Made by a program: the position numbers and the translations under genes | In this document: piece by piece, positions 1 to 35,797 of the stretch | Layout: every line of letters begins with the position of its first letter | Position numbering within the stretch: the first letter of the stretch is position 1 | Assembly: GCF_000264995.1 (NCBI RefSeq) | Contig: NW_006767449.1 | Span: 57,805 to 121,804, forward strand | Reading direction: 5' to 3' | Length of the DNA: 64,000 nucleotides | Source of the DNA: Punctularia strigosozonata HHB-11173 SS5 | Lineage: Eukaryota > Basidiomycota > Agaricomycetes > Corticiales > Punctulariaceae | Notes under the pieces: generated by a model | Seen by the model: the letters and a program-made list of their open reading frames with translations, nothing else | What the model was told of the DNA's origin: nothing | Databases searched by the model: none

Positions 1-1
1 C

Positions 2-686
2 AACAAGAACGGTCTTCTGGACTTCAGCGACTGCTTCTCCGCCGACAGCGATTCTCTGTTCGATGCTGGCCTTATCTCCGAGAGCGAATTCGAGGCGCGC
101 CGGGGGCTTGAATGGGATGTTCTAGATTCTCTCGTAAATCCCTCTTTCTTGGAGTCTGAGAGCGACTTCGGCGCGCTTGCTAGCGAGATTTCCCCAGAAC
201 CAAGCTCCTCGCTCGCCGCGATCCGTGTCGTTCCGATCCCTGGAGCACAGGCTTATGAACCTGTCGCACCCGGGTCGCCGTCGTTTGTCGAACCGGAACG
301 TTACTACGACGACGAAGAAACAAGACGTTAAAGGCTGGGATCCCGTGAGCGAAACCATCGTTTCCTTGGCCGACAAACCCAACTGGCGCGGACCGCGGGT
401 CTACCCTATTGGGTCGACTTATCGCTACTCCCCGGTGACGCGCGATCGCTCGGAGCGCGTCCTCTCGTCGGCCAAGCGCAATTCGATCAAGCTGAACTGT
501 GCGCGAGCCGCGACGGTACGAAAAGGTCTCGCTACATCGCCGGACCCGGTGAACACAGCGGCGAAGGCACTGGCACGCGGTAGCGTCCCTCTTGCAGACG
601 TGAGGTACCCGGGAATCCGGCAGGCTGGATCGGCGCTTGATCCTGTCGAAGCCAACGTTGAAACGCAGGGAGGATCTTGGGAATAA
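2..686 (+). CDS. B0: 3' end of an FHA-pseudokinase family gene, cut by the window edge
   Basis: Only the C-terminal tail lies inside the window. Frame 2 is open from the first bases to a stop at 329-331, and a second frame is open from about 312 to 686. The tail shows the landmarks seen in B1, B2 and B3 further right: a GLEW block matching ELEW in B1/B2, then an SSSLAAIRVVPI block matching SPATTVCAIPV (B1), SPKTTIYAIPV (B2) and SPAAAIHAVPT (B3). The second frame encodes a basic, Ser/Ala-rich tail. Either a short intron joins the frames or the copy is frame-broken; I could not settle this. The family match places it in the same tandem array as A1-B1 and A2-B2. Its kinase domain would lie to the left of the window. 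Confidence 0.55.
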
Positions 687-792
687 TGACGACGAGATAC
701 TTGGGATAGATATGGATCTAGTTCCTTGATACCAGATACCGATCCTCTAGTGTACATTTTTGGCCATCACAAGACATGCATGTTACGCTCTG

Positions 793-1324
793 TCATGCCA
801 TCCCAACCGCATCCCGACTACCAGTAGGGGGTTCTGTTCGTTTTACGTACTACTCCATCATAACGGAGGTATCAAGCATAACGACCTCGAACCGAGGAAC
901 ATCGTGTGTTACAAAAACATTTTCCCTGTCTTTGTGGTCCTCGCTGAAGCCATTGTGCATGAATCTGTACGCCGACTCAATGTGACTCCTCGCGCACTTC
1001 GCCCCAATGTCGAGGAGTTCGGCTGCGACGAAATGAATAGATCATGTCCAGAGTACCGGATCTGGTTCAACGGTCCGCGCCTGTACTTAATTGAATTTAC
1101 TCGCGCCCTCAGATCGTCTCTGCTTCGCCGGGTTTTCGATCCCTGCCAATTCGATAAGTACCTTAGAGGACGTGATCAGACCTTTCACGTCCCGCGGCGG
1201 CTGCGTAGCCAGGTATGATCTTGTGATGGCCAAGAAAATATTGGCAGAGGTGCAATTTCGCCGGAGGCACTATCCAGACAGTCTGAAACCTCGAATCTGG
1301 GCCCGGTCGACACGTCGTTGGTAA
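793..1324 (+). pseudogene. Fragment of a fungal phosphotransferase/kinase-like gene (HNDLEPRN loop)
   Basis: Translation of about 860-910 gives GGIKHNDLEPRNIV, which resembles the catalytic loop of the basidiomycete aminoglycoside-phosphotransferase/FunK1-like kinase superfamily (usual form HGDLEPRNV). About 60 codons later the same frame has RLYLIEFTRA, resembling the metal-binding loop (usual LIDF) with E for D. The reading frame then stops near 1216 and a neighbouring frame carries on to 1324. No start, no N-lobe and no complete C-lobe are visible, so this reads as a remnant. It is not a member of the B family described next to it, which has a different loop sequence. Confidence 0.4.
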
Positions 1325-2361
1325 CGACGTCCTACGCGGAAGAACTTGAGCAAGGCGCGAGTTGATGACCGAAGTTCGTGGTATGAGTTGGGAGAGCAAT
1401 CGTCGGATATCAATCCCTGCGATGAAGAGAGGACACCCTGGAAATCGGCCGGAGCTCCATCCTCCGGATGTACTTCCCAGATTTCGTCTTCACGAATAGC
1501 ACTGCTTCATTACGAGAGCGGGTGAGAATGAAATGCACGACTGCAAGAGAAAGCACATACGTGTTGGCTTGTCGACATAGTATGAGGATCGTTCCTCTGG
1601 TCTACTGACGGGTTCGAGGGAGGGCGTCGACTGAGCGCAGCCTGTACGGGGCGTGCTGGGCTAAAAGTAACGATCGCGCTGCTGCAGCGTCGCTCCTCCA
1701 GTTTTCGGTCTGGGCGCGCGAGGCTCCCTTGTGGACTTGAAGACGACCGTCAGTGCGACCACGCTTTCTGGGGCATTCTTCATCAGATGACGGAGAGTGG
1801 GATCGCTTCCTGGACGAGTTTGAGAAGTGATTGATTAATGATCATGGGGACTTCGTCTTCAGACGTTTCGTCTGGAGATGGAGATGGAGCGGCAAGAAAG
1901 TCGGATGTCGGTGCAGGTCTCTGTGACGTAGACTCTGGTCGAGGGATAGACTCTTGGAGTCTACAGTTCCGCATGCCTAGGCAGGTTGGATGAACAGGCG
2001 AAAGGGTTTGTATGACATGACCAGTGCAAACCTGATGCAGTACGCTGTGCAGTTTGATCGCCAACACCTGGCGCGAGATTGACGAACTCCAGAGAGTCGT
2101 AAGATTGGGATCTGTCCAAGGATGGCGAACGTTCGGCCTGACCATATGACCCGCTCGGTCTGACTTGCCGTGTCATCGCGGCGGTGACGGAGACCGCAGA
2201 TGTTCGCGCACAAAGCATCGTAGCAAGCCGTAGCGGCGAGTCGGGTCTCAACATCTAGCTTTTTACATGCAAAGGTAGCAACTCGCACAAGGATCTGGTG
2301 ATCCGTCGATTCGCATGAGTTCAGGGTTGAGGAACAAGACGCTGAGCGGGATGCAGTGAAC
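1325..2361. other. Intergenic, no gene recognised
   Basis: Only short overlapping ORFs without recognisable motifs are seen. Around 2203-2236 there is a short stretch resembling 9564-9597 upstream of A2, so this may be a rearranged part of the module's 5' flank. Confidence 0.4.
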
Positions 2362-3000
2362 AGTAAGCCGTAAATGCGAGCCGGATGGTCCGCTTGGCGT
2401 GTTCTCAAGCGCCATCCTCCTCTTGCCAACGTAGGCTCAAGCATCCCGTGGTACTTTCCAAATGTCGGTCGGAAGACTTTCTTGGCCGACTCATCGGTGT
2501 CGCAAGTGAGAGGGGGAAAACGGCGAGCGCACGACGCGCCATCGCGATCACATGCACAGAGATATCTAAGACATCCACGTGGCAATGGCGTTGAGTAGAC
2601 TTCTGCAGTCTCAGCTCAGAGCTGAGATCTACCGCATCTCATACGGGACATCCTTGTCTGTATACACTTGCTTTCATCCCTAGAATTTACTGGCGAGAAT
2701 TTACGAACCGGATCAGATCCTGAACAATCCGTTTTTTCGACAGCGAGATACCCATGGTCCGCGTCTCGAAGGTCACCCGAACCTCTATCCGACTATCTCA
2801 TTCACCAGCTAAACTCGAGACTGCCGAAAACCACGTCAGACCAGTCACTCGCGCCGAAAAGCAGCGCGCCTCTACCCTAGTCGAGTTTGGCAATGCTGTG
2901 CTTAAACTTGAGGCGACGACGTCCCAGCCTTCGCTCCGTACGCACAAACCCTATGTCTCTTGAGTCGTCTCATTGATCCCTCATGCCTGACATTATATAG
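2362..3000 (+). repeat. Direct repeat copy 1: module 5' flank plus A exon 1 and intron 1
   Basis: This segment matches 9581-10193 in direct orientation. I see no mismatch between about 2554-2786 and 9755-9987, which spans about 200 bases of untranslated flank and the first 33 bases of A exon 1. Further upstream the match continues with small indels. The repeat ends gradually inside A exon 2. Confidence 0.9.
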
Positions 3001-4403
3001 GATCGACTCATCATGGCTATAATCTCCGATCTACTCTCAAACGAACGTCCGAAGTCTCCCCGCAAGGCTCAACAAACTCAGTGCGCAGACCTCAAGGCTT
3101 AACAACAGCATCCGGCGCTCGACCGCGCACAGGGACTGTTCCTGATACTTCCAAGATCACTCCCGCACCCCGTGCAACGCGTCAGCGTAAAAGACCTCCA
3201 TCACCGTCTGTGCTGGACGAACGTCCTACTAAGGGCCGTCCTGGCCGCGATGAAGTGCCGACGAAGCGAACTGGCGTCCTCAGACGAGAACTGCTCACGA
3301 TGAGGGACGAGGCTTCCACAATACACGACCTCATCGCTCAAACTGAAGAGGCCGTGAACCGGACCACTGCTAGAGTTAAGGAGCTGCGAGAGGAGACCAA
3401 GATGCTTTGCATAGCACCCGCAGCGTTACCGCTGACCAAACCCGCTCCTGAAGGTGATAGAACTCGAGGCCTGTAAGCTGCTCTTCTACTCTCGATCCGA
3501 CTTGTGGAATCTCATGAAATCGCCTGCAGGCCTGCACAGGAGGGTGAATGTAGGCAGCCGCGTACCGCACAACCAGCACCTACGGACAAAAACCCCGTAC
3601 CCCCGGTCACTAGTCTTGCGACAGCATGGGTGCGACCAAGTGACCCGAATAGAGATCCCTATGACTACTCAAAGGGCGAGCTCGCCTCCCTATATCACCA
3701 GTTGCTCGACGCTTCTCCCACTCTTTGCACATGTCGACGGACCGCCCTACAACAGACGCGCGTCGACAAAACGAAGTGCTCACGACCCAGGCCTCGCTTT
3801 GGTGTTGACGCGCAAGGCATGTCTTTCCAAGACTGGGCTGTTTGCGCGACCACGCGTCGTCGTTCGCATTCCCAACGACGCATGATCAAAGAAATCATCA
3901 TTTCCCAAGAGCTGCTCTTGGAATGGGAAAGGCTCGACGACGATCATCGCCTGTTACTGCCAGCGCTACTACGACCGCGACGTCCCAGAGGTTTTACGAC
4001 CCAATTCACCCTCCAGTTTCGACATCTACCACGTCATGTCTTCGATACGCTCGAGCTCTGGCACATATCCACCGGCAGGTGCTTGAACTGCATCGTCGTA
4101 GCCATGCGTACGTTTCCGCCATGGATCGTCGAGACGCGTGGGCCAGAAGAAACGGAGGACGGAAATCCGGTCTATGTGAATTTGAAACGCAACGAGTTGA
4201 TCGAATGGGACGACGACAGGAAAAGCTGGCGGCACCTGGTGCTGGACCACCACACGTGGATTCCCATACAAGAGCTGGAAGAGAGGTCGGGTGACAGCGC
4301 GGCTGATCCCTCAGTGATCAACGGCTCGTTCAACAAACCTATTCCTCAGCCGTTTCCTCTCTGGTACGGTACCATACTGGACACGCCCTTGGCTAATGTA
4401 TAG
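2754..4403 (+). CDS. A1: unrecognised protein with CxC/CxxC C-terminal domain, module gene A
   Basis: Three exons are inferred: 2754-2937, 3001-3472 and 3530-4403, with introns of 63 and 57 nt bounded by GT and AG and phases that agree with copy A2. The start is the ATG shared with A2 (MVRVSKVTRT). The product is about 510 residues. Residues 1-130 are basic and Ser/Thr-rich with a nuclear-localisation-like KRPPSPSVLDERPTKGR block, followed by a predicted helical segment. The C-terminal domain begins with CTC, continues with PRPRFGVDAQG and FQDW, a second basic PRRPR patch, then CLNC, RTFPPWIVE, GNPVYVN, IEWDDDRKSWRHLVLDHH and an ELEER end. All four landmarks recur in A2, A3 and the A remnant. 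The CxC and CxxC pairs could bind a metal; that is inference. I do not recognise the family. It lies about 1 kb upstream of B1 on the same strand. Confidence 0.8.
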
Positions 4404-5304
4404 TTTGGATCATAATGCGGCATCGTCAAGACGATTGAGTTGTAATGGAGTGCATGAGGTCTGAGTGGATCCGTACAGACTCTCATGCGCCAATTCGATC
4501 ATTCGTCCGCGCCATCGCTGAAAACACACCACCCAGGTAAGCATGCATACCACAGCTCCTGCAACTAACCAAGTCACCACCGGGTATGACAACCGTGAAA
4601 TAGCATTTATAGAAATATGTTCGCGGGGATTGAGTCCGGCCAACTGTGCATCAAGGTGTTAGTGCCACCAACACAATGCGAGAGCGCTGTTATGCGATCT
4701 TGAGCCGTCGATGCACGGTCTGGGGCTCTTGATAATGCTTTTAACCCACCCCTACATTCTTGCCCATGGGGTAAACGGGGGTGGCCGGGTTTTGCATGCA
4801 CTGACGGGGTACCCAGCTATCTATGCTCGACGGCTGAAGAGGACTCCGATAGGTTACAGTACATGCATATCGATGAGGTACTCATGTACCTACCAGTAGT
4901 GCACCGCTGGACTTGGTGCGGTCGACTGTTGCAACTCAGGAAAAGCAGGGATCCGGTGTAACCATGGCTGTACGCCTGACGTATATGCGGCAAGGCAACC
5001 TCTACCGGCCACTGTTGGGAAAATAAGGCCAGGCCTTGTCTCCCCAGGCAGACTCTAGAGCGTCAAGACAGTCACGCAATGGAGGCCATCGGCAAGCCAA
5101 GAGAACTTTAGGGGAGGCCCCGGTTTGCTGCGCTTGTGGCGAACACGAGATTCCCTCGCAGAATCTACTTACTAACACCGTACCCGCTGCAACATTTGCC
5201 ACGTCTTGAATCTCGAACGTCTACGGAACACGTCGATCGCCCAGTGTCGCTATCTTCGATTGCTAGGTTGGCCTTGCGTACATGTGCACAATGCCCCACA
5301 ATAT
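4404..5304. other. Spacer between A1 and B1
   Basis: No coding region is supported. A short minus-strand ORF (4410-4643) contains one hydrophobic stretch but has no other support. Confidence 0.4.
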
Positions 5305-5391
5305 GGACAAAGCCACTGGCCATTGCGAATCACTTTCCGTCGTGCCACGGACACCACAAACAAAGCGTCGTTAACCGATTGTGCATATAAA
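5305..5391 (+). promoter_or_regulatory. B1 promoter: conserved GGACAAAGCCAC box and TATA
   Basis: GGACAAAGCCAC at 5305-5316 and ATATAAA at 5385-5391 lie upstream of the B1 start at 5449. The same box and the same GCATATAAAC TATA context occur upstream of B2, with TATA-to-ATG distances of 64 and 62 bases. An AATGCCCCAC motif also occurs in both upstream regions. Confidence 0.6.
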
Positions 5392-5448
5392 CGAAGGACC
5401 TTGGGCCCTTTGAACGCGTCTCCGCCTCTCACGAGACCCTCTTCAGCT

Positions 5449-8125
5449 ATGTCCCTCACTGACGAACTGTTCACTCGGCGAGCGTCCCTTGCTTGCGAGC
5501 TGCGCGACCGTAACTGGGCCTTTCTGCAGTCATATACCAAGTCTCAATCGCACATTCTGCTCGATAAATCTTCGGATAAGTGGTACCTGTGCTCTCTACC
5601 ACTTGGACATTCACACGTCAAGGATAAGCCAGAGAAGCAAGGTCAGTGCCTGCTGTGTCTGCAACACGATGTGTCTGACGCTCGAGTAGCCGTGGCCATA
5701 GTTCGAATCCGTAAGGGTGATGAAAACAATGCGATCGAAGGCGGCGACATTTCCACTCAGTTGGAAATTGAGCCTGTCGACGATGAAGCCCGCATCTTCG
5801 TGAGTGCGAAACTGCGCTGAGCCGCCCACATGGACTCAGCAGCTTTTAGCTCAACGGGTCATTGGCCGAGGTCGGAGATTGCTACACGCTCGTACCGAAT
5901 ACTATCGTCCGTATCAACGACAAAGGTTCACCATTCCAGCCATTGCGCGCGTTTAGTCGTGCTTATTGCTCTTGATGTGGCAGAATACATCTACCGTCTT
6001 TTGAGTGATACTGAAGACGTCCCTTATCATGCTGAACGCTACGAGATCAACCAAAGTCGGAACCTTGGGTGGCCAGCAAAGCGTGAGTAACGATTCATCC
6101 AATCCGTCGGATTTCCGCGTCTTACCTCTTGCTTTATTCCAGCTGTCTATAGTGCGACGCGCATCCGAACTGGAGACGCTGTGGTCGTCAAATCTTGGAA
6201 TGTATCGCTCCCGAAGTTGAGCAAGGCGGCGGATCTATTGCGCACCATCGAAAAGCTGAAACACCGGAACATCGCATCGGTAGACGACTGGTTCATGCTT
6301 TTCGAAGACGTTGGAGAATCGTTCAGACGAATCTGTGGGGCCTCAATCAACTTCCTTTCCACCTCCAATTCCACTGATGACTTTACCAAAGGCATGGTGA
6401 CATCTCTAGCTCCGGGTGGTAACCTGTACGACTATATTAAGTTTGGCCGGAAGCTCGGTGAGCCGCACATAACTCACTTCTGTTCGCAGGATACTGACAC
6501 ACGATCTCTAGGTGAAATGCACGCCCGTCCCGTAGTTGCCCAACTCATGGACGGATTGATGGTAATGCGAGCCTTATTGTCTACCATCTTCCACTCACAG
6601 TATCCCTACAGTATATGCACGACCAGGGTATCATTCACCGTAACATAGAACCAAAGGTACGTCCTATCTATTCTCAAGCTTGTTTTCAGCGACCTCACAC
6701 GGGATGTGACTAAGAATATCCTCGTTTGTGACGAGAGCTGGGGCTACGTACCAACAATCAAGATCGGCGGGTTATGTTCCATACAACGATCCTCCATTGC
6801 CGATGTTCGGGTTCATGAGGAGCAAATGGTCGGGGACGCCAAATGCGCACCACCCGAGATACTGGATCACAAGTACACTGAGCTCGGCGACGTGTTCAGC
6901 ACAGGAGCTCTGATGTTCTTCATGTAAGTGCTCTGCGTGCTAAGCTTGGAGGTCTTCATTAACAGCCCTGCCAGTCTCTGGGGAAAATCGCTTTACCGTG
7001 TCCAGAAGGGGAAGAGCCTCCAGGAACAGATGCAGACGAGGCGTTGTAATTACGTCAAAGAGCGAGAGTTGATGATGAGCGAGGATGGTGAGTCTACCGC
7101 ACGTCGTCGTAAAACGCATTACTCATTACTCATATTTCGTCCAATCCTCAGCGAGCGATCTTCTAAATGGGCTGATAAAGAAGGACATGACCGACCGCTT
7201 GGCTCTGCACGAAGCACGACGCCACTCTTGGCTCTACCAGCGCCGGGTTCCTCCTCCCTCTCCGGATTCCTACTCCGTCGACGACTTTCGCGTCGTGGAA
7301 TTTCTCGAAGGCAAGACGCCCAGACCTCCCGTCCGAAGCAGCATACTGCGGACTGTACCACTGAAGCGAGATCCCATTGGAGACAGCGACACCGAATCCG
7401 AAAGCGACGCCGACGCGGAGTCGGATACTGATTCGGACATGCAGTCGGACGATGGATCGGAAACGTCGTCCGCCTCAGCTTCTGATGCATCCTCTGATGC
7501 TGTCTCAGACGCGCGGTCGGACGCAGATTCAGAGTCATCGTCTACCTTGGAAGAGGACGAAGAGCGCACCGAACTTGAATGGTACACCCACCATCGCAGC
7601 GACCCATTGCTTCTTCCGGATACCAGTGTTGTTTTGGACCAAGATCTTCTCCCATCCTCTCCGGCAACAACCGTCTGTGCTATTCCTGTATCTGACCGTT
7701 CCGTGGGTGTCCTATGTTCAGGGAAATTTGGCTCCGACTCAGATGGAGGAGACGATGACACTGACACGGTCGTCGGTTATGACGATCGTTTGCATCCCAT
7801 GAGGCTCTCCACGGAGGAGGAAGAGGAAGACGCCCAGGTTGCTCCGCGCACCAGTCGCGCCTCTCGTTCGAAGTGCGGACGCGGTGGACGCGTTGGCGGC
7901 TCCCGCCGCGCTGAAATAGCTGCATCGTCCGACGGTCGTCAACGCGCCCGCACGTCGGCCAGGATTCAGGCCGCCAAAGTCCGGGCAACCGAGCTGAAGA
8001 GGACCGAGCAGGCAGAGGCCAGGAATGTTCAGAAGATGATGCAGAGCACGGAGAAGAAGCTGGCGAGGGCGGCGGCGAGCGCCAAGAGCCTCCTGAAGAA
8101 CCTCGCGAAGCTGGACGCTATGTGA
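5449..8125 (+). CDS. B1: FHA-domain pseudokinase with acidic and basic tail, module gene B
   Basis: Multi-exon gene; exon 1 is 5449-5641, intron 1 is 5642-5686, exon 2 is 5687-5799, exon 3 starts at 5850, and several more 45-60 nt introns follow. The N-terminal region has the layout of an FHA domain ending LNGSLAEVGDCYTLV, TIVRIND and EYIYRLL. It is followed by a kinase fold with TGDAVVVK (N-lobe lysine kept), GNLYDYIKFGRKLGE, YMHDQGIIHRNIEPKN, IKIGGLCS, CAPPEI and a C-lobe. The catalytic HRD is HRN and the DFG is GGL, so phosphotransfer is unlikely. A long Asp/Glu/Ser-rich stretch (about 7380-7575) and a basic RG and coiled tail (about 7840-8125) end the protein. The architecture recalls CHK2/RAD53 kinases (FHA plus kinase), but the active-site losses and tail differ. 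TATA and start position match B2. Confidence 0.8.
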
Positions 8126-8326
8126 GACATCGCACGCGGGTCAGGCAAATGGAAGGTTCTAAGTATGGGATCGATAAAGTCGACATCGGTGCCTCCATTA
8201 TCTCTCTTTTGAGTATCATAGCTACGCCTGCCGTACCACAAGGACACTCAATCCAAAGAATCGTTATTTGAGCAATGATATGCTCGTTTCCATTGCCGAA
8301 CCCTTTTGACGCAACAGCCAACCCAC
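7834..8326 (+). repeat. Direct repeat: B tail and 3' flank, copy 1
   Basis: The last 292 coding bases of B1 match the last 292 of B2 (14432-14723) with roughly 20 differences by eye. The match continues about 200 bases past the stop with more scattered changes, including a shared stretch ending TTTTGACGCAACAGCC. This block is the right-hand conserved edge of the module. Confidence 0.88.
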
Positions 8327-8710
8327 AACATCATTGAAACGATATTTGGGGGGGCGACGACTTTGAACTCGCTCCCCAGGCCTGCTTTGCTTTGCTTCCC
8401 TCCCACTCTCTCCCTCGCATTCCGTGTGCCACGATCCCCGTGTCTTTCCCTCCCACCTATGTCTCCACCCCCCTACCCCCCTTCTTCCCTTGAACAGGTC
8501 TCTCCGCTTGGCCGCGACCCGCGCCGATGAACGGAACTCGACATCACCCCAAAAACGGATCAGAGCCGACCGAGGAAGATGTGGGAACAAGTTCCGTTGC
8601 TGTAGATATTGTACTACATTGTCGTTTGGATATATCTTTCCTTTCTTTATCATCATCCGTGTTGTTGTTCTTGCTGATTGCTTATTTGTATGATGCTCCA
8701 ACGGCGGTCG
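8327..8710 (+). repeat. Inverted repeat, left arm (copy of azgA 3' end and downstream region)
   Basis: This segment matches the reverse complement of 15055-15462 at high identity with small indels, for example ACAACATCATTGAAACGATA at the left end and GATGCTCCAACGGCGGTCG at the right end. In the right arm it begins with the last three codons and stop of the purine permease gene, so this left arm is a displaced copy of that gene's terminus. A pyrimidine-rich, C-run-bearing stretch (about 8390-8490) is the most variable part. Confidence 0.88.
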
Positions 8711-8726
8711 TATTGTGGACACGACA

Positions 8727-9476
8727 CCTACTCTTCAATCTGTTCTCTCGAACATGCAACAACTGGTTTCTGACGACTGCTCACCCGGCTCGGACACCGA
8801 ACTCCGGTCGACGTCCCACATTTTACTCGAATACTTCTGCGGAGATGAGCTTACTTGCTGTATGTGTCCACGTAAACGGTCGTGGCGCCGCAAGAACCAC
8901 ACGAAATTTGTATACCCTCACATGGGCGTGGACGCTCAGGGACACTTCTTAGAAGACTGGAGTGCTGGTCCAGCCCGACTGTTGCTGGCGCCCGGTTCCC
9001 CACACATCAAGTTGAAGGACAACATCCTCCGGAATGTTCTGTCGCGCAAGGAGGGTGAGGGGAGCAAGCGTATCCTACCGGCCCCGCTGCGTCCGCGCAG
9101 GCCAAGAGTATTCGCTACGCAACACAGAGTCGAGTTCAAAAACTTGAATCCCCAAGTTCTCAAAAGCGCTGGATGATTGGCGATGCCAGAGGGAGTGCCA
9201 CGACTGCATCGGCAGGGCCATAGATTCCTTCTCGCCATTGATCGTGAAATCTACGCGATGAAGGCCGTAATTCCTGCGTTTGTCAATAAGTTATCCGACG
9301 AAGTCATCGCGTGGGGTGAGGACAAGAGGCGATTCCGCATCTGGCTCTGGACCATTACCGGTGGGTACCGGTTGATGAGCTGCAGGAGAGACCGAGCGAC
9401 GGTGCTGCCAACCCCAAGGTCCTCAACGGGACGCTGGACAAGCCAATTCCTATACGTTCGAGGAATGTATTCATGA
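8727..9476 (+). pseudogene. Decayed copy of gene A (A remnant)
   Basis: Only the C-terminal domain of gene A is recognisable. It shows CCMC, PHMGVDAQG, LEDWSAG and LRPRRPRVFATQ in one frame, then DDWRCQRECHDCIG in another, then IPAFVNKLSDEVIAWGEDKRR in the first frame again, ending with a TGGYRL stretch. These match CTC/FGVDAQG/FQDW/RPRRPR/CLNC/NPVYVN/IEWDDDRKSW of A1 in the same order. At least two frame changes are needed and the N-terminal exons are missing. It starts directly after the inverted repeat and ends where the A2 5' flank begins, so it marks an ancient module now interrupted. Confidence 0.7.
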
Positions 9477-9580
9477 CCTAGTCGATCATGAGATCGGATT
9501 TGTACAAACTGTTTGATTAATGTGTGTAGTGATGTATAAGGCGCCAGCGCTAGGGTCCACACTGTTCGTGCACAAGGGGT

Positions 9581-10193
9581 CATAGTAAGCCGTAGATGCG
9601 ACCGCTTGGCGTGTTCCCAAGCGCCATCCTCCTCTGGCCAACGTAGGCTCAAGCATCCCGAGGTACTGTCCAAATGTCGGTCGGAAGACTTTATTGGCCG
9701 ACTCATCGGTGTCACAAGTGAGAAGGGGCGCACGACGCGCCATCACGATCACATGCACAGAGATATCTAAGACATCCACGTGGCAATGGCGTTGAGTAGA
9801 CTTCTGCAGTCTCAGCTCAGAGCTGAGATCTACCGCATCTCATACGGGACATCCTTGTCTGTATACACTTGCTTTCATCCCTAGAATTTACTGGCGAGAA
9901 TTTACGAACCGGATCAGATCCTGAACAATCCGTTTTTTCGACAGCGAGATACCCATGGTCCGCGTCTCGAAGGTCACCCGAACCTCTACCCGACTATCTC
10001 ATTCACCAGCTAAACTCGAGACTGCCGAAGACAACGCCAGACCAGTCACTCGCGCCGAAAAGCAGCGCGCCTCTACCCTAGTCGAGTTTGGCAACGCCGT
10101 GCTGAAACTTGAGGCGACGACGTCCCAGCCTTCGCTCAGTACGCACAAACCCTCTTCTCGTCTCACGGATTCCCAATGCCTCATGTTATATAG
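9581..10193 (+). repeat. Direct repeat copy 2: module 5' flank plus A exon 1 and intron 1
   Basis: This is the partner of 2362-3000, offset by about 7.2 kb. It contains the promoter region and first exon and intron of A2. The intron 1 interiors differ although both ends are shared. Confidence 0.9.
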
Positions 10194-11590
10194 GATCGAA
10201 TCATCATGGCTATAACCTCCGATCTACTCGTAAACGAACGTCCGAAGTCTCCCCGCACGACTCAACAAACTCGGTGCGCAGACCTCAAGGCTTATCAACA
10301 GCATCCGGCGCTCGGCCGCGCACCGAGACCGCTTCAGATGGGACCATCAAGATCACCCCCGCACCCCGTGCAGCGCCTAAGCGCAAACGACCTCCATCGC
10401 CGTCTGTGTTGGATGAACGCCCTACCAAGGGTCGCCGCAGTAGCGATGAGGCCCAAACGACAGAGATCAGGGCTCGTCTCGCTTTGCGACGAGAAATGCG
10501 CACGATGAGCAATGAGGCGTCCGCGGTTCGCGATCTCGTGGCTCATACTGAAGAGGCTGTGATTCGGACCATGGCCAGAGTCAGAGATCTCCGAAAAGCG
10601 ACGAGGAAGCTCTGTAAACAGGCAGCGTCATTCCCAGTGAACACCGCCCTCGAGCCTGATGTAATTCGAGATAGATCGTGAGTAATCTTGCCGTTATTGC
10701 TTGCTTTACGTCGACTCATGAGATTCCTAAGTTCTGCTCCTGCGCGCGGGACACACCGTATTCAGCCGCCCTCCCCAACACAACCCGCAGATTCGAGGCA
10801 CAACCCTCTCGTTATCACACCTGATGTAACCTGGCCGCGGTACAACGATCCGGAGAGATACTCTCAGGATTACTCGGACGCCGAACTTGCGTCAATCTAC
10901 CGTACTATGCTCGACGGCATGCCTGCCGTCTGCATATGCAGACCGACGACCTTGCAGCGAAGACACTTCGAGCACACGAAATACAATTATCCAAGACCTC
11001 GATTCGGCGTAGATCAACAAGGCGCGCCTTTCCAGGATTGGTCCGTTGTCCCCCGGGGAAAAAATCGTCGCCGACGACGTCTGGCAAAGGAGGACATCGT
11101 TGCCAACGAGCTGTTCTTGGACCAAGCCGCCCCTGATGAAAACGTCTGTGTCTTACCGGCTCCCCGTCGACCGCGACGCCCTAGGGCGTTCTCGACGGCT
11201 TTCACCCTCCAGTTCCGACATATTCCCACTTGCGTCTTAGACACGATGGAGTTATGGCACGTCCAGAATGGTCGATGTTTGAGTTGCATCGCAATGGCGA
11301 TGCGGACGTTCCCTCCTTGGATCGTTGAAGCGCATTCACCCGAGCGAGTAGAAGAAGGGAATCCCATTTATGTGAACCAGGATCGAGACGAGATGATCGA
11401 GTGGGACGAAGCCAGGAAGCGTTGGAGGCATCTGGTGCTCGACCATTACAGGTGGACACCGGTCCAAGATCTGGAGGAGAGGCCTGTTGACAATGCTGCC
11501 GATCCCCTGATTGTCAACGGGTCATCCGGGCGGCCCGTGCCTCGACCCTGTCGTATCTTCTACGGGTGTGTACTCGACACGCATTACTAG
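9955..11590 (+). CDS. A2: unrecognised protein with CxC/CxxC C-terminal domain, module gene A
   Basis: Three exons are inferred: 9955-10138, 10194-10677 and 10732-11590. Introns are GT-AG (55 and 54 nt) and sit at the same phases as in A1. Exon 1 is nearly identical to A1, exon 2 is similar (KRKRPPSPSVLDERPTKGR), and exon 3 is clearly diverged. The C-terminal domain has CIC, PRPRFGVDQQG, FQDWSV, RRPRRPRAFST, FRHIP, CLSC, RTFPPWIVE, GNPIYVN, IEWDEARKRWRHLVLDHY and QDLEERP. The product is about 508 residues without signal peptide or membrane span, with many basic residues in the N-terminal half, which suggests a nuclear or nucleic-acid-associated protein (inference). B2 starts 464 bases downstream. 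I cannot name the family. Confidence 0.82.
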
Positions 11591-11907
11591 AACAGTTGCG
11601 CGCAAATGACTTCGGTTGCTCGTCCTTGCTGCTGTACTATATCAAATCTTGTCATCTGTCGAGCTTAATGGGAGTCCGGGGGCGCGTCCGGGCCGAAGTG
11701 GCCCGATGCGTTGTCGGTGCACTCACGTGCGCCAACACTGCAATAAATCGTCCGCCTTCGGCGTCTACATTACACGTATACATAACTAAGTCAGGAGCCC
11801 ACTGCAATTTCATGCCCGGTATATCAGATTCTCACTAGCATCGCCAGTAGCCGCACTGTTGCAGTGGCACATGGGCCGCGCTTTGTCACGCCAGTGGCCT
11901 ATAGTTT

Positions 11908-11999
11908 GGACAAAGCCACCCGCAATGCTTCTGGGGATGATTGGCCATCTGGCCATGGCCGCCACAGACAATGCCCCACCATCGAAATCTGCATATAAA
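11908..11999 (+). promoter_or_regulatory. B2 promoter: conserved GGACAAAGCCAC box and TATA
   Basis: GGACAAAGCCAC occurs at 11908-11919 and ATATAAA at 11993-11999, 62 bases before the B2 start, repeating the arrangement in front of B1. The rest of the 11591-12054 spacer has nothing else recognisable. Confidence 0.6.
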
Positions 12000-12054
12000 C
12001 CATGCTTGTAGGCGAGTTTTACCCCGCTCTACCTCTGCGAGCTATCCGCCAACC

Positions 12055-14723
12055 ATGCCACTGAAGAAGGATCAAGTGTTTGCTCAGCAAGCGTCTCTGC
12101 TGTACGAACTGCGCGGCAAGAACTGGGCCTTCCTTCAAGCCTCCAAGCCTCATCAACACGTTCTGTTCGATAACTCGTCGCCGGAGTGGTATTTATATTC
12201 CCAAAGCGTTGGACAGCCACCGGCGCCGTTCGAGTCAAAGCAAGGTCGGTGCCATTACCATATAAGCGTCACATCATCTAATGCTCAACCACAGAGAATC
12301 GTTCGGCACTTGCCGTCATCCGCAAGGTGAATGACAGCTCTGAAGATGCACAGGTAGAAATCCTGCCCATGGAGGAAGCCGCACGCATTCGTGTACGTCG
12401 AAGCTCGCGTTGATCTACCTGGCTTCGCTGATGATCATGACAGGTGAATGGAAGGATGATATACGTCGGAGACGAGTGCCCACTCTTACACAATACCGTC
12501 ATTCGTATCGGTGACCACGGTATGTATCGGATCATGCAAGCTTGACGCAGTACTTATTCACTGCCCACAGAGTATATCTATCGCTTTTTGGGAGACTTGC
12601 AAGACGTTCCATACCATGTTGATCGCTACAGCATCGACGATCACAATGTTCTTCGCGGTGTTCATGGTAAAGGATGTAAGCAGTTCAAGATTCTCTCCGC
12701 CCAAGTTCTCGCTCTTTACCCGAGGGATATCCTTAGTCGTTTTCAGTGCCACGCATCTCACAACAGGTCATGCTGTGGCCGTGAAGGTTCTATCGATGCC
12801 CACCAAGAAGATGAAGCACGCACAGTCACAGCTATTGAGAATGGTCGAAGAATTGACTCATCAGAACATATTGTCTTTTTCTGACTGGTTCCTGTATCCC
12901 AAAGCTGCCGGCGAAGCGGTCACGCGGATTGGTGAGTCGTTTATTCACATGTCCACGCGCTCCCTGACTGTAACACCTGAAGGCATGGTGACATCACTGC
13001 TCCCGCACGGGAATCTTTTCGACTATATCAAGATCAGAGGAAAACTAGGTATGTCCCACGGTCCGTAGAACCAGTCGTTGCCGTCCACTGAATGCAATGT
13101 CCGATTTCTAGGAGAACTACTCGCTCGTCCTGTTGTCGCTCAACTCATGGACGGACTGATGGTAGCGCACCTCATGACCGTACTGCGGTTTGCCACTGAC
13201 ATTGTATCCGTAGTACATGCACAGCCAGGGCGTCCTTCATCGCCAAGTCGAGCCAGAGGTTTGTCACATTCGCTTTCAAGTCCTCTCCTTGCCAAACCTC
13301 ACCCTCAACACACGCAGAACATCCTCGTATGCGATGAGAGCTGCGGCCAGATCCTTACAATCAAGATCAGCGGTTTCGGATCTGCCCAGCGGTTTGCCAG
13401 CACAACCGACGGAGACGACCAGAAGTTGGTCGGAAATGCACAATGGGCACCACCCGAGCTCTTGAAGTCTAAATATAATGAGCTTGGAGACACCTTTGGC
13501 GTGGGAGCTATCATGTTCTTCGTGTAAGTGGTCAGATTCTTCCCCGGTACGCGCGCTTCAATTCCGCCCTTTAGCCTCTGGGAGAAACCATTTTACCGCG
13601 TCGATGATGAGATGAGCCTTAAGGAACAGATGCAGACGAGGCTCTCCAATTACACGGCAAAGCGAAAGTTGCGGATGGGCTCGCCCGGTATGTATACGCT
13701 GAATCGTACATGATATAAAAAAACTCACTTTACTTCGACTTAGCATGCAATCTCCTCGATAAGCTGACAAAAGAGAACACAAGTGAGCGCCTGCGACTGC
13801 GCGAAGCCCGATGCGACCCATGGCTGGAGCGACGCCAGGTCCCTCCTCCATTTTTGAAACCGTACTCTGCCGATCATTATCTGGTTAGGGGTTTCATTGA
13901 CAGAAACGGGCTCCCTGAACCTGCGTTCAGACGGACATTCATGACCAATGGGAAGTCCACCTACTATAGCGACTCCGACAACGACTCCGACAACGACTCG
14001 GATGCAGAGACCGACGCCGACGTCAACACGGAGCAGGACGACGAGTCTGGCCCGGAAACAACCTCTCATGAAACGTCGATTTCGGATGCGTCTTCTTACG
14101 TAGCCACGGACGCGCGATCGGACGCAGGTTCAGAATCGTCTTCCAGCCTCGAGGAGGAAGAGGATCGCCCCGAACTAGAATGGTACTCGACCAATTACGC
14201 CAGTGATCTGCTCTTTCTCCCGGATAACAATCCAGTTTGGGACCCTGTGCCGCGCTCTCCGAAGACCACCATCTACGCAATCCCTGTATCCGACGCTCCC
14301 GTAGGCGCCGCGTCGGGTGTCATTGACCTCGAGTCGGATGGAGGAGACGATGACACGGACACGTTGGTCGGTTACGACGACCATTCGTATTCCATGGACC
14401 TCACCACCGAGGAGGATGAAGACCAAGAACCCCAGGTTGCCTCGCGCACGAGTCGCGCCTCTCGTTCGAAGCGTGGACGCGGTGGACGCGTCGGTGGCTC
14501 CCGCCGCGTCGGAATAGCTGCATCGTCCGACGGTCGTCAACGCGCCCGCACGTCGGCCAGGCTCCAGGCCGCCAAAGTCCGGGCAACCGAGCTGAAGAGG
14601 ACCGAGCGGGTGGAGGCCAGGAATGTTCAGAAGATGGTGCACACCACGGAGAAGAAGCTGGCGAGGGCGGCGGCGAGCGCCAAGAGCCTCCTGAAGAACC
14701 TCGCGAAGCTGGACGCTATGTGA
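12055..14723 (+). CDS. B2: FHA-domain pseudokinase with acidic and basic tail, module gene B
   Basis: Multi-exon gene starting MPLKKDQVFAQQASLLYELR; exon 1 is 12055-12244 and later introns are short GT-AG introns at B1-like positions. The FHA-like part is recognisable by WYLYSQS, IRVNGRMIYVGDECPLLHN, TVIRIGDH and EYIYRFLGD. The kinase fold shows GHAVAVKVL, GNLFDYIKIRGKLGE, YMHSQGVLHRQVEPEN, IKISGFGSAQ, WAPPELL and a complete C-lobe. HRD is replaced by HRQ and DFG by SGF/GFG without the metal-binding Asp, so it is probably a scaffold or sensor, not an enzyme (inference). The tail has an acidic serine-rich run (SDSDNDSDND and following), then RASRSKRGRGGRVGGSRR, then a Lys/Ala-rich helix ending LAKLDAM. 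It converges on azgA. Confidence 0.82.
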
Positions 14724-14935
14724 GACATCGCACGCGGGTCAGGCAAGTAGAAGGCTGTAAGAATGGGGTCGACAAAGTCGACATCGGTGCCTCTCTTATA
14801 TCTCTTTTGATTATCATAGCTACGCCTGCCGTACCATAAGGACACTTACGCCATGTATGATCCAACGAATCGTTATATAAGCAATGATATGCTCGTTTCC
14901 ATTGCCGAACCCTTTTGACGCAACAGCCAAACCGC
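14432..14935 (+). repeat. Direct repeat: B tail and 3' flank, copy 2
   Basis: This is the partner of 7834-8326. The non-coding part runs from the B2 stop to about 14935, after which the two loci part: copy 1 continues into the inverted repeat at once, copy 2 has about 120 unrelated bases first. Confidence 0.88.
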
Positions 14936-15054: not shown

Positions 15055-15462
15055 CATACGACCGCCGTTGGAGCATCATACACACAAGCAAGCAGCAAGA
15101 ACAACAAACAACACGGATGATGATAAAAGAAAGGAAAGAGATATACCCAAACGACAATACAATATCTACAGCAATGGAACATGTTCCCGTATCTTCCTCG
15201 GTCGGCCCTGATCCGTTTTGTGGGTGAAGTTTAGTCCAGTTCATCAGCGCGGGTCGGGGCACAGCGGAGCGATCTGTTCAAGGGAAGAGCGGTGGAGTGG
15301 GGGGGAGGGGAGAGGTAGGTGGGAGGGAAAGACACGGGGGATCGTGGCGCACGGAATGCGAGGGGGAGAGAGAGTGGGAGGGAAGCAAAGCACAGCAGAG
15401 GGGGGGGGAGGGAAAGCGAGTTCAAACGACGTCGGCCCCAAATATCGTTTCAATGATGTTGT
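15055..15462 (-). repeat. Inverted repeat, right arm (native azgA 3' end and downstream region)
   Basis: This is the reverse-complement partner of 8327-8710. The azgA stop codon (15450-15452) lies inside it, so this arm is the source and the left arm the copy. Together with 8327-8710 it brackets the A remnant, A2 and B2. Confidence 0.88.
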
Positions 15463-30483: not shown

Positions 30484-33211
30484 CTACGTCCCCTGTTTAA
30501 CCTCCAACCCCGCAACGGCCTCCAGCAAATCGTCAACGCCTGTCTTCGCCTCCGAATTAACCGCGCCCGTGTCGATTAGCACGCCGCGGTCGATATTGTT
30601 CATGACATCCATTCGAGCTTCCTTCGGGCTGGTTGAATCGGATCTGGCCAGTTTGACCTTGCCTTCCCCGCGCGGCCTATCAAGCGCGGATGGGCCGGTG
30701 CTGGCGATGACCACATCGTGAACGGCGCCAAAGAAGCTGCGAGCACGCCTACGGTTGGCGCGGGACCACGGATTGGATGGCATGGTTGTTTCGCTATTGG
30801 TGCGTTGTTCCGAAGGGCAAAGATCCAGCTCAGCGTTCAGAAAGCCATCGTACTCGCAAACAGTGTTCGCGTCGACAGTACAAGCGTCGGTATCTGTGTC
30901 GATATCGGAGATCCCGGAAGGATGGAACGATGCCCTGTCCACAGGATCTTTGGAAGTAGGGACGGCGTGAATGGCTGCGGCAGGTGAGGTTTCCCAGTCA
31001 TTACTGTCGTTGCTATTAATTCCCCAGTCGTCAATGTACGCATAGACTAGCGAGTTCTCAGGGGTCCAGGGCCGCTCATCCAGAGATGGCGATCCTTCGG
31101 GGCTCGCATAGGGCAGAATATCCTGGTCGTAAGTCGGATGTTCGGTGGAATCCAGACAGGTACCCATAACATTGGTAAGGTTCGCTGGTCTCCTGTCTTC
31201 GTTAATGAACGCTTGCACAACAGGATCATCGTAGTCGTAGGGTTCCGAGCATGGAGGTGGAACCTGCACTTGGCGCAGCCACTGGTGGTAACGGGCTCCA
31301 CCCAAGGATAGCCGCCCGCTCGGGGCCATTCTTGTCATACACTTGATAATTAGGTGTGCTAATTCACGATAAATTCGATCAAAACATTTTCTACTGCAGG
31401 AAATCAGAGGGTTACCGTCGATGCTCATCGTCGACTCCCCATCCATAGTGTGATTCGAGCGCCGCTCTTCTATCTGTCGCTGAGGACTCGTTTGTCGCTT
31501 TTTGTCATCGACATAGTAGAGTGGCTTTCCCCGCAATCTGAAGGTTCTGATTGAGCACTCTGACCGCGTACCTGAGGTTGAACACCTACATGAAGAACAT
31601 GACGGCACCCACGCTGAAGGCCTCGCTCAGTTCACTATATTGACACTGCAACAGTTCGGGTGGGCTCCATTCGACACTGATAGTCATGCCCTGCATGTTT
31701 TGCATTGAGCCCCGAAGAATACTCATGATAAAGAAAATATGGTCACTCGCCTCGACATCCGAGTCACAAAGGGCCTTAACACAGTCACTGGCCTCGACAT
31801 CCGACTCATAGTCATCAGATCGTCGCGCAAAACTAAAGCCACTGAGCTTGATGGTCGGAATACCGCTTTCGCTCTCTTGATATACAAGAATGTTCTGACA
31901 ACGTTCGGAGTCAGATCTCCGCGTATCCAGGGGAAGGAGATATTCGACTACCTCTGGCCTGACATTGCCGTGCAGGATGTCTCGTCCATGCATGTACTGT
32001 GGATATAATGTCAGCTGGGATGCTAGGGGGCTCATAGGTGTTTTACCAGTAATCCATCCACGAGTTGCGCCATGACGGAACGAGCGACTGGTTCGCCTGG
32101 GTTTGTATTTAGGTCAGTGTCATGTCCGACGTATTCAAATCCCGAATCAAGCGCACATAGATTGCCCCGTGCGATGGTGAAATCGTAGAGGTTGCCTCGC
32201 GGAGCAAGAGGCGTCACAATGCCTTAGGAAGCAATCATCAAAGGATACTCTTCCAACGATTTGTTACTCACTGATTCGCCGAACGGGTGCGCCGAGATCT
32301 TCGGGGCACATATACCAATCGCACGGACGCACGATATTCTCGTGGATAAGCTCATCGCACATTCTGATCATAGACGCGGCTTTGCTCAGCTCCTCAACTG
32401 GAACCGATATTGTCTTGACGACTACGGCATGATTTGTTTGGATGTGCTTCGCGACGTAGATGGCTTAGGGGAGAATTAGTCAGTGGCCGAGGTAGCGAGT
32501 ACACGAACGCACCCGTTCGACCTACGTCCAGAATCGGTTTCGGGTCCAACCGATAATGACCAGCAGAGTATGGGGTGCTCGTGATATCCCATAAGGATCG
32601 ATAGACGTAGTCTGAGAACATCGGATGAGCGTGAACATCCATGAGGAGACTGCATAGTATATGAAGAACCTACCGACATAGTTTACGCGTACGGTCGCGT
32701 CAGGCAAGAGCGCACATTTGTCGCCATATTTCAGCAATGTTCCGTCGACCTTGAAGGATGATCAGCGGATACGTCTCTCGTGGAGCGCGTTACTTGGCGT
32801 ACATAAATCCGGACGGAAACGTCTGTGCGCTGGATCTCAACCCTGACACCTTCCTTTCTTCCCTCCAACACGTTGTCATCGATGAGAGAGACTATGGCCA
32901 CTGGGTTGGACATGGATACCTCAGATAGCGGTTCTGAAGACGAGCTCGGTTATCGGCGCCAAAGTAACGATTCATTATGAACACTACTGACCCTCGCCCC
33001 TTCCCTCGGCTTGCAGTTGTTCCTCTTCGGTGGCGTCGTAGCAGATTCCCCACGATCTTGACTCGTTGGAGAAAAGGAGGTTCAACATACAGTGAATGGG
33101 AGACTCAAGATAAGCCCAGGCCTGCCCGCGCAACTCATACCTCGCAGACGCACGCTTAGCGAACACGGCAGGATCTGCTAGGTGAAGGATGGGCTCTGCG
33201 GATGGTGGCAT
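30484..33211 (-). CDS. B3: FHA-domain pseudokinase, third module copy
   Basis: Minus-strand multi-exon homologue of B1 and B2. The first exon (33211 down to about 33000) has FAKRASARYELRGQAWAYLES, matching FAQQASLLYELRGKNWAFLQA of B2. The FHA-like part includes VDGTLLKYGDKCALLPDATV and DYVYRSLWDI. The kinase fold shows HAVVVKTISVP, GNLYDFTIARGNL, MHGRDILHGNVRPEN (intron within it), IKLSGFSFARR, WSPPELL, EAFSVGAVMFFM, GKPLYYVDDKK and WLRQVQVPPP. The HRD is HGN and the DFG is SGF, so it is also a pseudokinase. The tail carries SPAAAIHAVPT but not the RG-rich basic end shared by B1 and B2. A TATA-like CATAAAAG lies at 33248-33255. Its partner A3 lies upstream, as in the other modules. Confidence 0.75.
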
Positions 33212-33922: not shown

Positions 33923-35797
33923 CTACGTAAAGTATCGGTTCCACGAACTGAGCGTATGTATGTAACGTGCTCCGTTGATGATTGTCGGATCGACGTGCCT
34001 ATCGGCCGGTCTTTTCTCAAGCTCTTCGACAGGTATATCCACCGATGGTGATCAAGGGCCGCCACCCCTTCCGCTCCTCGGCCCATTCGACAATTTCGTC
34101 TCCGTAGAAATTTGAGAATACAGGATTCCCTTCTTCGATCAACCCTCTACCGGAGGGTTCCCAGTCGGTCATCCACGTAGGCAACGTCCGCGTCGCCCTG
34201 TCTAGACACGTAGAGCACTTCCCGAATTTGATACACCATTGCTCCAGCATCTCGGATGCGCTGCCAGGAACGTAATCAAGTGGGAGAAAAACTTCGCCAC
34301 GAATGTCCGGCGGGGTCGTGGACGGACCGTTGCCGGATACATGCGCCGACTCCGAATCGCGTCGGGACCATGTGTCAGGCCTGGGGACATGTTCTGCTTG
34401 GCGAGAAGTTCTCTCTTCATGAGCCGTGGACGCTCCGAATGGGGTTGAGGAGGACAAGCCGACCAGTCCTCGAAGAGGATTCCTTGCATATCCACGCGGA
34501 AGCGGGGTTTCGGACGCAGGAACATTTTCTTGTCCATGTACCGTCGGTGCGAGGCAGATGGTAGGCAGGTGCAAATAGGGACGGGAATGTCGTTCTTCGC
34601 TTGGGATGACGACGCAAGCTCCTCGAGAAAGTGCTGTTTCGAGAGCTGACTTCCTTGAGGGGTAGTCTCCTCACGTTTAAGTGGCTGTTTTCGTTCGGAA
34701 TGCTTCACGCGTGAATCCAAATCAGAGCGTGTTCGGAAAACATCAGGCCGCATCGACGCCGCGGCAGAGGTGTCAACCTCGTTCAGTCATTTCCTGCGCT
34801 CTTGCTTCTGGTCGTGATGTGATGGTGTACTTTCGTCACTACTCGCAACGCTGAGTCGAACAACGTCAGTTAAGAGCTAGACGGTGCCTACGGAGGAGAC
34901 TCACAGCGCTGGATCCGGAGTGCTATCCTGGCCAGACGATCGCTCTGTAAGTGCGCGCTTTCGAGCCTTTTCCTTCGCTAGTACGTTGGCTGTGGCTAGC
35001 GCTAGATGTACACTTTCCTTGATCTCTACGACTAGCCTGTGCACCTCGGGTTTCTGGGTAATCAACCATTGCAGCTCCTTCCTGTCGCGTCGGATATGGA
35101 TCTTCGTCTCTTCTCGCAGGTCGTGGTTCCCGTGGCGACGCTTGACGTGACGTTCGTCGGACGCGGAAGGGGATCGGGGTCGCTTGGTAGCAACGCTTGT
35201 AAGATCAACCTCGAATGCGGATTTCGCCTGTGTGCGAAGGAGTTCAGGTACGTCTTGCGACTGCTACAATGCTGATTTCTGGGCCGCAAGTACGCAGGGG
35301 AATCGAAGATAATGGTCATGAGCCATCTGATCTGGACAGGGAGTCGTAAATAACGAGTGAACGGGGTGACGGAGCTCGAACGTACCGGACAATGACGAAG
35401 AGGTTGGCTGTCCGGAGTGGCTATATCGGTGTAAAGCAGAGCAAAATTTGTTCCTTTGCGAAGCACCTCTCTTGGTGCTATCGGTAGATATACGAGAAGG
35501 TCTTAGCGCGGTTGCTCTTCGGGTGGCACTCAAAGCGCTTGCGCAGGCGATATCCAAGGTGAAGTCCTGAGTTATGCAGTGAGGTTCGGGGCGGGTAGAC
35601 AGCACTGAGGTCAAGTGGGCTGTCTCAGCAATAGCGAAAGGTATGTGATTGGTACAATAACTGAATAAGCCGTGATACACAGAGCTCGAATTGAGCTCCG
35701 AACGCCGTTGCCACGTGTTTGTGTCCGTTTTGGGAAGATAAGATGCCTCTTCATCCGTTTGAATCGGTGGAGCATCACTTGGCAATGAATTAGCCAA
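33923..35797 (-). pseudogene. A3: third copy of gene A, frame-broken
   Basis: Homology to A1 and A2 runs along the minus strand in the expected order but across frames. Upstream parts show TKRGASQRNKF and a KRPRSPSASDERHVKRR block equivalent to KRKRPPSPSVLDERPTKGR, then a helical DLREETKIHIRRDRKEL segment. The C-terminal domain shows CTC, RPKPRFRVDMQG, FEDWSAC and RPRPRRTFVAKFF in one frame. A second frame gives KCSTC, RTLPTWM, GNPVFSNF and DEIVEWAEERKGWRPL, and a third VDIPVEELEKRP and TIINGA. At least two single-base frame changes are needed in the last exon, so the copy is probably dead unless the assembly is wrong there. Both cysteine pairs are kept. The gene would end at 33923. Confidence 0.65.

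Follow-up and report, generated by a model that had tools for sequence, protein, structure and literature searches.

Genes and features of the window

The window, that is, the whole stretch of 64,000 nt from Punctularia strigosozonata HHB-11173 SS5 that was analysed here, carried copies of two types of genes, designated A and B, arranged in modules (Table 1). A sequence-only reading had described three same-strand A-B pairs in which A always precedes B, and this order was true for all three. A1-B1 and A2-B2 could be modelled as open spliced genes, whereas A3 was a pseudogene, with weaker remains seen by eye further upstream, to approximately 35.6 kb; of the three pairs in the window, two are thus open, and in the third an open B follows a dead A. 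In the spliced models, B1 and B2 had intron phases in the identical order 1,0,1,1,1,1,0,0,2,1, and B3 had the same phases except that the last intron was absent, leaving 10 exons. The decayed A described between modules 1 and 2 was also recovered. However, the end of another B, claimed for the left edge, was not: neither tblastn nor a spliced profile search gave a B above noise in the first 2.6 kb or in the stretch further left, which reads N. One 18-residue kinase-loop-like stretch was the only B-like sequence at this edge. The frame at nt 751–1218, which had no Pfam match, contained a stretch, HNDLEPRNI, resembling the catalytic loop of another kinase.

Table 1 Features of the A-B modules in the window
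Feature	Position (nt)	Strand	Description
Module 1 5' end (upstream DNA and first A exons)	2390..3130	+	90–99% identity to module 2, ~9602–10330
A1	2754..4403 (exons 2754–2937, 3001–3472, 3530–4403)	+	509 aa, 3 exons, spliced model; N-terminal part basic; a stretch that looks helical by eye; CTC and GRCLNC in the C-terminal domain
B1	5449..8125	+	709 aa, 11 exons, open, spliced model; N-terminal domain, kinase domain with HRN/GGL instead of HRD/DFG, tail acidic then basic
Module 1 3' end (B tail and 3' flank)	7780..8230	+	83–95% identity to module 2, ~14378–14840
Inverted repeat arm	8325..8700	+	83% identity; other arm 15069–15462
Decayed A	8790..9451	+	3 frameshifts within aligned part; between modules 1 and 2
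A2	9955..11590 (exons 9955–10138, 10194–10677, 10732–11590)	+	508 aa; 62% identity to A1
B2	12055..14723	+	707 aa, 11 exons, open; HRQ/GFG replace HRD/DFG
B3	30484..33211	-	734 aa, 10 exons, open; HGN/GFS replace HRD/DFG
A3 C-terminal domain	33968..34573	-	Pseudogene, 3 frameshifts in aligned C-terminal part

Modules 1 and 2 were alike at their ends (83–99% identity) around a divergent core (approximately 48–72%), and the region from 8.3 to 15.5 kb was bracketed by an inverted repeat (~400 bp). This arrangement of ends and core was dropped as a rule for the family, since it was not observed where the neighbouring C10 and C19 modules had been fetched.

Protein A

Protein A possessed a conserved C-terminal domain and the motifs [C/H]xC and CxxC. 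Its earlier description as a CxC/CxxC protein was right for CxxC, but the first motif was not always CxC. A regular expression for a basic bipartite motif, a putative nuclear signal, matched 21 of 29 A copies, A1 and A2 not among them. No convincing relative of A was found in Pfam or PDB, and AlphaFold2 applied to exon 3 of A1/A2 (two-row alignment) gave no usable structure (pLDDT 36.6). DNA primase large subunit was the only family in the PDB profile list of 11 chains, a short stretch of A, PRPRxGxDxxGxxFxDWS, being similar to KPRPGRGDYHGCPFRDWS of that subunit (E 0.07). However, the likeness was limited to 45 residues, A lacked the Cys of GCPF, and 14 A members matched no primase family in Pfam at E ≤ 10; the primase-like motif is a weak lead.

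Protein B

By its sequence, B is a member of the protein kinase family: PF00069 was over the curated cut-off in all three window copies and in the three others scanned, the Pfam Pkinase E value being 9e-32 in B1 and 9e-52 in a copy from C10. The Lys at the VAIK position was retained in 13/13 B copies. The HRD and DFG aspartates that mark an active kinase were both missing from B1, B2 and B3, and among the six copies of the window's clade the HRD-Asp was retained in one and the DFG-Asp in none, whereas both catalytic aspartates were retained in all seven of the other B copies modelled. In two of the C19 copies, the Asp residues lie in altered motifs (HAD/DFV and HGD/DFG), thereby making kinase activity of those copies uncertain. 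Judged from these motifs, the pseudokinase state is derived and confined to the window's clade; the earlier naming of B as a pseudokinase thus holds for this clade, and the general label "pseudokinase module" was dropped.

An FHA domain had also been assigned to B. This assignment was not borne out, as none of 12 B N-terminal regions matched Pfam FHA (PF00498) at E ≤ 10 and the PDB profile list contained no FHA structure. Profile-profile comparison by hhalign aligned the B N-terminal domain with FHA over the C-terminal half only (E 0.0035, probability 9%; positive control 90%), three column shuffles giving E values of 0.14–0.57, which is only suggestive of an FHA-like part. Among 13 other kinases of the genome, the one nearest to B was the FHA-kinase (in C5:1495367-1498627; support 82), and B was probably derived from an FHA-type kinase.

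Genome-wide linkage of A and B

Counting fragments, A occurred at 35 loci of the 33.6 Mb genome; B-type loci numbered 24. A was located directly upstream, on the same strand, of 22 of the 24 B-type loci, in clusters on five contigs. The pairing noticed in the window is therefore genuine in this genome and larger than the three pairs seen there; the contrary expectation, that A and B would usually be unlinked, was not observed within this genome. The C10 array alone held 6 A and 6 B within 33 kb, in tandem, head to tail and in one orientation. With coordinate lists compiled by hand from the search outputs, 23 of 35 A had a B within 3 kb downstream, compared with 0.04 A-B pairs predicted by random placement; when B was shuffled inside the clusters, the mean was 6.3 pairs and the maximum 13, so that none of 2000 shuffles reached 23. 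This count uses 22 distinct B, as a remnant A reaches B2, which belongs to the neighbouring A2; with the remnant left out, there were 22 pairs, and 13/35 A were without a B of their own.

By eye and among the best-scoring candidates, A was upstream in 17/17 loci with a B N-terminal match (one beginning at or before query residue 100), and no such match lay elsewhere. The count also includes the two A-less B-type loci, whose matches were confined to the kinase domain. In one B search, 37 of 82 rows, located outside the A-bearing clusters and limited to the kinase domain (query residue 150 onward), were excluded as ordinary kinases; similar kinase-only rows in the other B searches were also excluded, without a count.

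Thus, B without A was rare (2/24), whereas no B accompanied at least 12 of the 35 A, indicating that pairing is not obligate for A. Four A genes at L070 and L072 had no B downstream, as confirmed by spliced search. B, with its many short exons, is harder to detect than A, which has one long exon, and part of the excess of A without B may reflect this. At the window locus, B3 is still open despite its own A3 being dead.

Co-inheritance, age and selection

Trees of A and B built for 13 pairs agreed (Mantel r 0.82, a value reached in 0 of 10000 permutations), except that the branching order of the C10 pairs differed between the two. Core dS values of A1/A2 and B1/B2 were approximately 1.1–1.9, and the window pairs thus do not trace to one recent block copy, although the outer ends of modules 1 and 2 are nearly alike. 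The dN/dS ratio was 0.18–0.33 across the core regions of both comparisons, being 0.18 for the A C-terminal domain and 0.27 for the B kinase domain; from these ratios, both A and B look to be under purifying selection. Joint retention of A and B is strongly supported by the linkage at 22/24 loci and the congruent trees; the joint function proposed in the sequence-only reading goes a step further and is an inference from this retention.

Possible functions of the A-B module

Since duplication has carried A and B along as one unit, they probably work together. We propose, with about even confidence, that they form a working pair in which B acts on or through A, this being why the two are inherited together. 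What the analysis shows is linkage, order, co-inheritance, purifying selection and, in one clade, the disappearance of catalytic residues. Under this proposal, the A-B pair would be an old, expanded two-gene module of P. strigosozonata. A may be a nuclear, metal-binding adaptor, as hinted by its [C/H]xC...CxxC domain and the basic stretch in many copies, and B would be a kinase, variable in its N-terminal domain and of probable FHA-type kinase origin, that docks on the product of the adjoining A gene. Copies of B with intact catalytic aspartates (C10, C19, C6) might phosphorylate A or an A-presented target, as B would have done originally, whereas those of the window's clade, with the catalytic residues gone, might bind A as a scaffold or decoy. 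Physical contact of A with B, cell location, metal binding and direction of action are all inferred here.

Tandem copying of one ancestral pair is expected to yield linkage and tree agreement even without joint function. It is conceivable, and in our view unlikely, that A and B were merely ancestral neighbours with separate functions that spread in this manner; the single orientation of the C10 tandem arrays (6 A and 6 B in 33 kb) and the congruent trees, which block copying alone would also give, fit such a history. Yet core dS has reached 1.1–1.9 and 22/24 B still keep an A neighbour on five contigs, with lone A being commoner, and free loss would strip both genes equally, whereas 2/24 B and 12/35 A were found alone, albeit with B the harder to detect. 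A toxin-antidote, killer or self/non-self module, in which one gene harms cells or spores lacking the pair and the other protects, would account for the copy number, clusters, dead copies and rarity of B without A, as for a harmful gene in need of its partner, and for the contrast in modules 1 and 2 between homogenised ends (83–99%) and divergent core (~48–72%); by analogy, the kinase domain of Spok confers resistance (PMC6660238). We consider this rather unlikely, since the copies are old and under apparent purifying selection, 26/27 other modelled A are open in the aligned part, and the fetched stretches of the neighbouring C10/C19 modules showed no homogenised ends. A very weak Pfam match to the PIN family in one of two A proteins (E 0.097) was not significant, and 14 A C-terminal domains had no nuclease or other toxin family match in Pfam at E ≤ 10.

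That the pair is cargo or body of a mobile element is very improbable: many copies on five contigs and the inverted repeat around 8.3–15.5 kb would suit it, but a genome-wide search located just two copies each of the repeat and of both module ends, all at the window locus, and the C10 array runs head to tail. Pfam matches of A or B included no transposase family, and the search with these sequences gave no repeated termini at dispersed copies of the kind that define a DNA transposon. A more speculative and doubtful possibility is a previously undescribed recognition or conflict system of this fungal lineage, in which each A would recognise its own B, dead decoys would have arisen from active kinases in one clade, and new specificities would arise in the divergent core while the ends are kept alike by gene conversion, serving allorecognition, genome defence or meiotic drive.

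If A and B form a working pair as preferred here, approximately 20 linked pairs with active-looking as well as dead kinases would be available in one genome, a natural series for the change from kinase to pseudokinase with the partner kept, and a first handle would be gained on A, a protein family without an assigned domain. No description of the A-B pair was recognised in the literature searched, which leaves out most subscription papers.

Comparison with known systems

FunK1-type kinases (PF17667) are expanded kinase families in fungi. B differs from them in scoring far above the cut-off for PF00069 instead, whereas PF17667 stayed under its cut-off of 24.1 bits in two B copies (12.3 and 15.2 bits) and was absent from the third copy scanned. 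Like B, kinases of the Rad53/Cds1/Chk2 type have an N-terminal domain followed by a CAMK-like kinase domain; this domain order is shared by the FHA-kinase at C5, the kinase domain of which was nearest B. However, B has no recognisable FHA domain, at most a possible C-terminal half, the DFG and HRD Asp are missing from its window copies, and it is multi-copy and linked to A. In a PDB search with a C10 copy of B, CDPK and CaMK chains (8e-32) were well above RAD53 (3e-21).

Spok (PMC6660238) is a gene family with several members and resembles A-B in that one module unites a kinase domain with a Cys cluster. Spok is a single protein with a predicted PD-(D/E)XK nuclease and the cluster C-x3-C-x13-C-x5-H-x7-H, whereas A-B comprises two genes, with no significant nuclease match and with [C/H]xC and CxxC as its Cys motifs. 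Should A-B prove to act in conflict, it would represent a fungal system built on a kinase and made up of two genes, in contrast to Spok with its single gene.

Gene structures and duplicated ends

The window corresponded to positions 57805-121804 of C17, a contig of a 33.6 Mb genome in 32 contigs. All-vs-all comparison of stop-to-stop frames revealed the repeated A and B genes, for which spliced models were built by hand. A1 and A2 had three exons each and shared 62% identity; B1 and B2 had eleven exons each with identical intron phases, and B3 had ten. Over the first 440-490 residues, B1 shared 50% identity with B2 and 40% with B3. The sequence-only reading had described three A-B pairs with A upstream; this order was found in all three, but A3 carried three frameshifts in its C-terminal part. 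The decayed A that it placed between modules 1 (A1-B1) and 2 (A2-B2) was recovered, also with three frameshifts, and a further B at the left edge was not borne out.

Between near-identical outer ends, the core of modules 1 and 2 was only about 48-72% identical, an arrangement that would fit local gene conversion, or else ends shared around a divergent cassette. Neighbouring modules on C10 or C19 did not show this pattern in the portions retrieved, and no further copies of the ends were found elsewhere in the genome. A genome search with the inverted repeat likewise found only the two copies listed.

Coordinates of features in the window and at one further C17 locus
Feature	Position	Strand	Observation
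5' end of A, modules 1 vs 2	2390-3130 vs about 9602-10330		90-99% identical
3' end of B, modules 1 vs 2	7780-8230 vs about 14378-14840		83-95% identical
Inverted repeat	8325-8700 and 15069-15462		83% identical; flanks remnant A and module 2
Frame with HNDLEPRNI	751-1218		Resembles catalytic loop of another kinase-like family; no match in Pfam scan
Tandem uncharacterised sequence	19.8-21.7 kb	+	Two copies, spacing 819-839 bp
Further duplicated region	36.3-38.2 and 41.7-43.8 kb	+	Matched frames 43-90% identical; no Pfam match for two pieces scanned
Cys/Met metabolism PLP enzyme gene	46.0-47.9 and 49.1-50.5 kb	-	In duplicate
L070	C17:554500-564400		Three successive A genes, no B between; B at stretch end, opposite strand

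Linkage of A and B across the genome

A single A protein query gave 40 matches, all on C17, C10, C19, C6 and C4, and a B protein query gave 82; B matches near A genes lay downstream of A on the same strand. Both lists were completed with further queries from other family parts, and 37 of the 82 rows of the B search, with matches confined to the kinase domain, were excluded as ordinary kinases. The locus table, compiled by hand from search outputs that score best candidates only, listed 35 loci for A, counting fragments, and 24 B-type loci. Among these candidates, 22 of the 24 B directly followed an A of the same orientation; the matched A and B stretches were 148-1227 bp apart in 20 of these pairs, and 1.8 kb and 2.2 kb apart in the last two. 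Random placement would yield 0.04 pairs, and 2000 within-cluster shuffles yielded a mean of 6.3 and a maximum of 13. By eye, all 17 loci matching the B N-terminal domain among the best candidates scored also had A upstream, a check independent of the exclusion of ordinary kinases. That the linkage is real is hardly in doubt.

Of the 35 A loci, 12 had no B within 3 kb, or 13 with the remnant A included; one of these A copies is frameshifted and two are short fragments. B is the harder of the two genes to detect, since A has a single long exon. Since B is rarely alone and A more often so, B seems to depend on A. L070 is a site where A multiplied alone. The A-B clusters on the five contigs lay within ~255 kb of a contig end, a post hoc threshold, several contigs being short.

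Co-inheritance and selection

Tree distances of A and B correlated across 13 pairs, A3 included (r 0.82; 0 of 10000 permutations). In both the A and B trees the window's clade (for B, six copies including B1, B2 and B3) was separated from the rest with support of 100; the two trees disagreed within C10. Selection on both genes looks purifying: dN/dS was 0.18 for the A1/A2 C-terminal domain, 0.27 for the B1/B2 kinase domain, 0.47 in the stretch adjoining the B tail, and 0.50 and 0.99, from few changes, in the short homogenised module ends, values that are rough because core synonymous changes are near saturation.

Protein A

With two full-length proteins and 14 C-terminal domains as queries, no convincing Pfam match was obtained: one full-length protein matched a PIN domain family (E 0.097), and the C-terminal domains gave two matches, one member each, the better being a putative coat protein (E 0.0033). 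Profiles of A found nothing significant in PDB; a 45-residue stretch weakly matched the DNA primase large subunit (E 0.07), which serves as a lead only. Apart from A1 and A2, 26 of 27 modelled loci were open in the aligned part, as counted with an aligner that may skip stops as introns, and one was frameshifted. All 29 copies (A1, A2 and these 27) possessed [C/H]xC followed by P-R/K-x-R-x-G-x-D, 28 retained both CxxC cysteines, and 21 had a bipartite basic motif, for which A1 and A2 gave no match.

Protein B

The kinase domain of B was clear in Pfam and PDB comparisons, and its N-terminal region showed at most a doubtful resemblance to an FHA domain, confined to the C-terminal half of the latter. 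Thirteen B genes were compared with a custom-written spliced aligner. In the window's clade (three copies in the window, one on C4 and two elsewhere on C17), the DFG aspartate was absent from all six and the HRD aspartate from five; both were present in the other seven, of which four lie on C10, one on C6 and two, with altered motifs, on C19. As the aspartates were lost in this clade and kept elsewhere, the window B genes are predicted to be pseudokinases, a derived state, from a family with active-looking members. The pseudokinase label earlier given to B thus applies to this clade and not to the family as a whole. When 13 further kinases from this genome served as the root, the clade formed a single group (support 100) adjoined by the C6 copy (support 82), and the nearest outsider to B among those kinases was an FHA-kinase on C5 (support 82).

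Possible function and comparison with known systems

A and B probably function jointly. Their linkage, their co-inheritance and the disappearance of catalytic residues from B are demonstrated by the sequence data. B would bind the product of the neighbouring A gene, a contact that, like the cellular location, we infer; copies with catalytic residues kept may phosphorylate A or something A brings, and those of the window's clade may act as scaffold or decoy. Action of the kinase on A is, in our estimate, evenly balanced between right and wrong. That the two genes stay together through hitchhiking appears unlikely, that they form a conflict or killer system marginally more so, and that they belong to a mobile element highly improbable.

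In the literature searched, no description was recognised as such an A-B pair. PDB matches of a C10 copy of B ranked CDPK and CaMK chains over RAD53, which counts against a close link to Chk2/Rad53. The kinase itself is of known kind; the novelty is its lasting linkage to the uncharacterised partner A.
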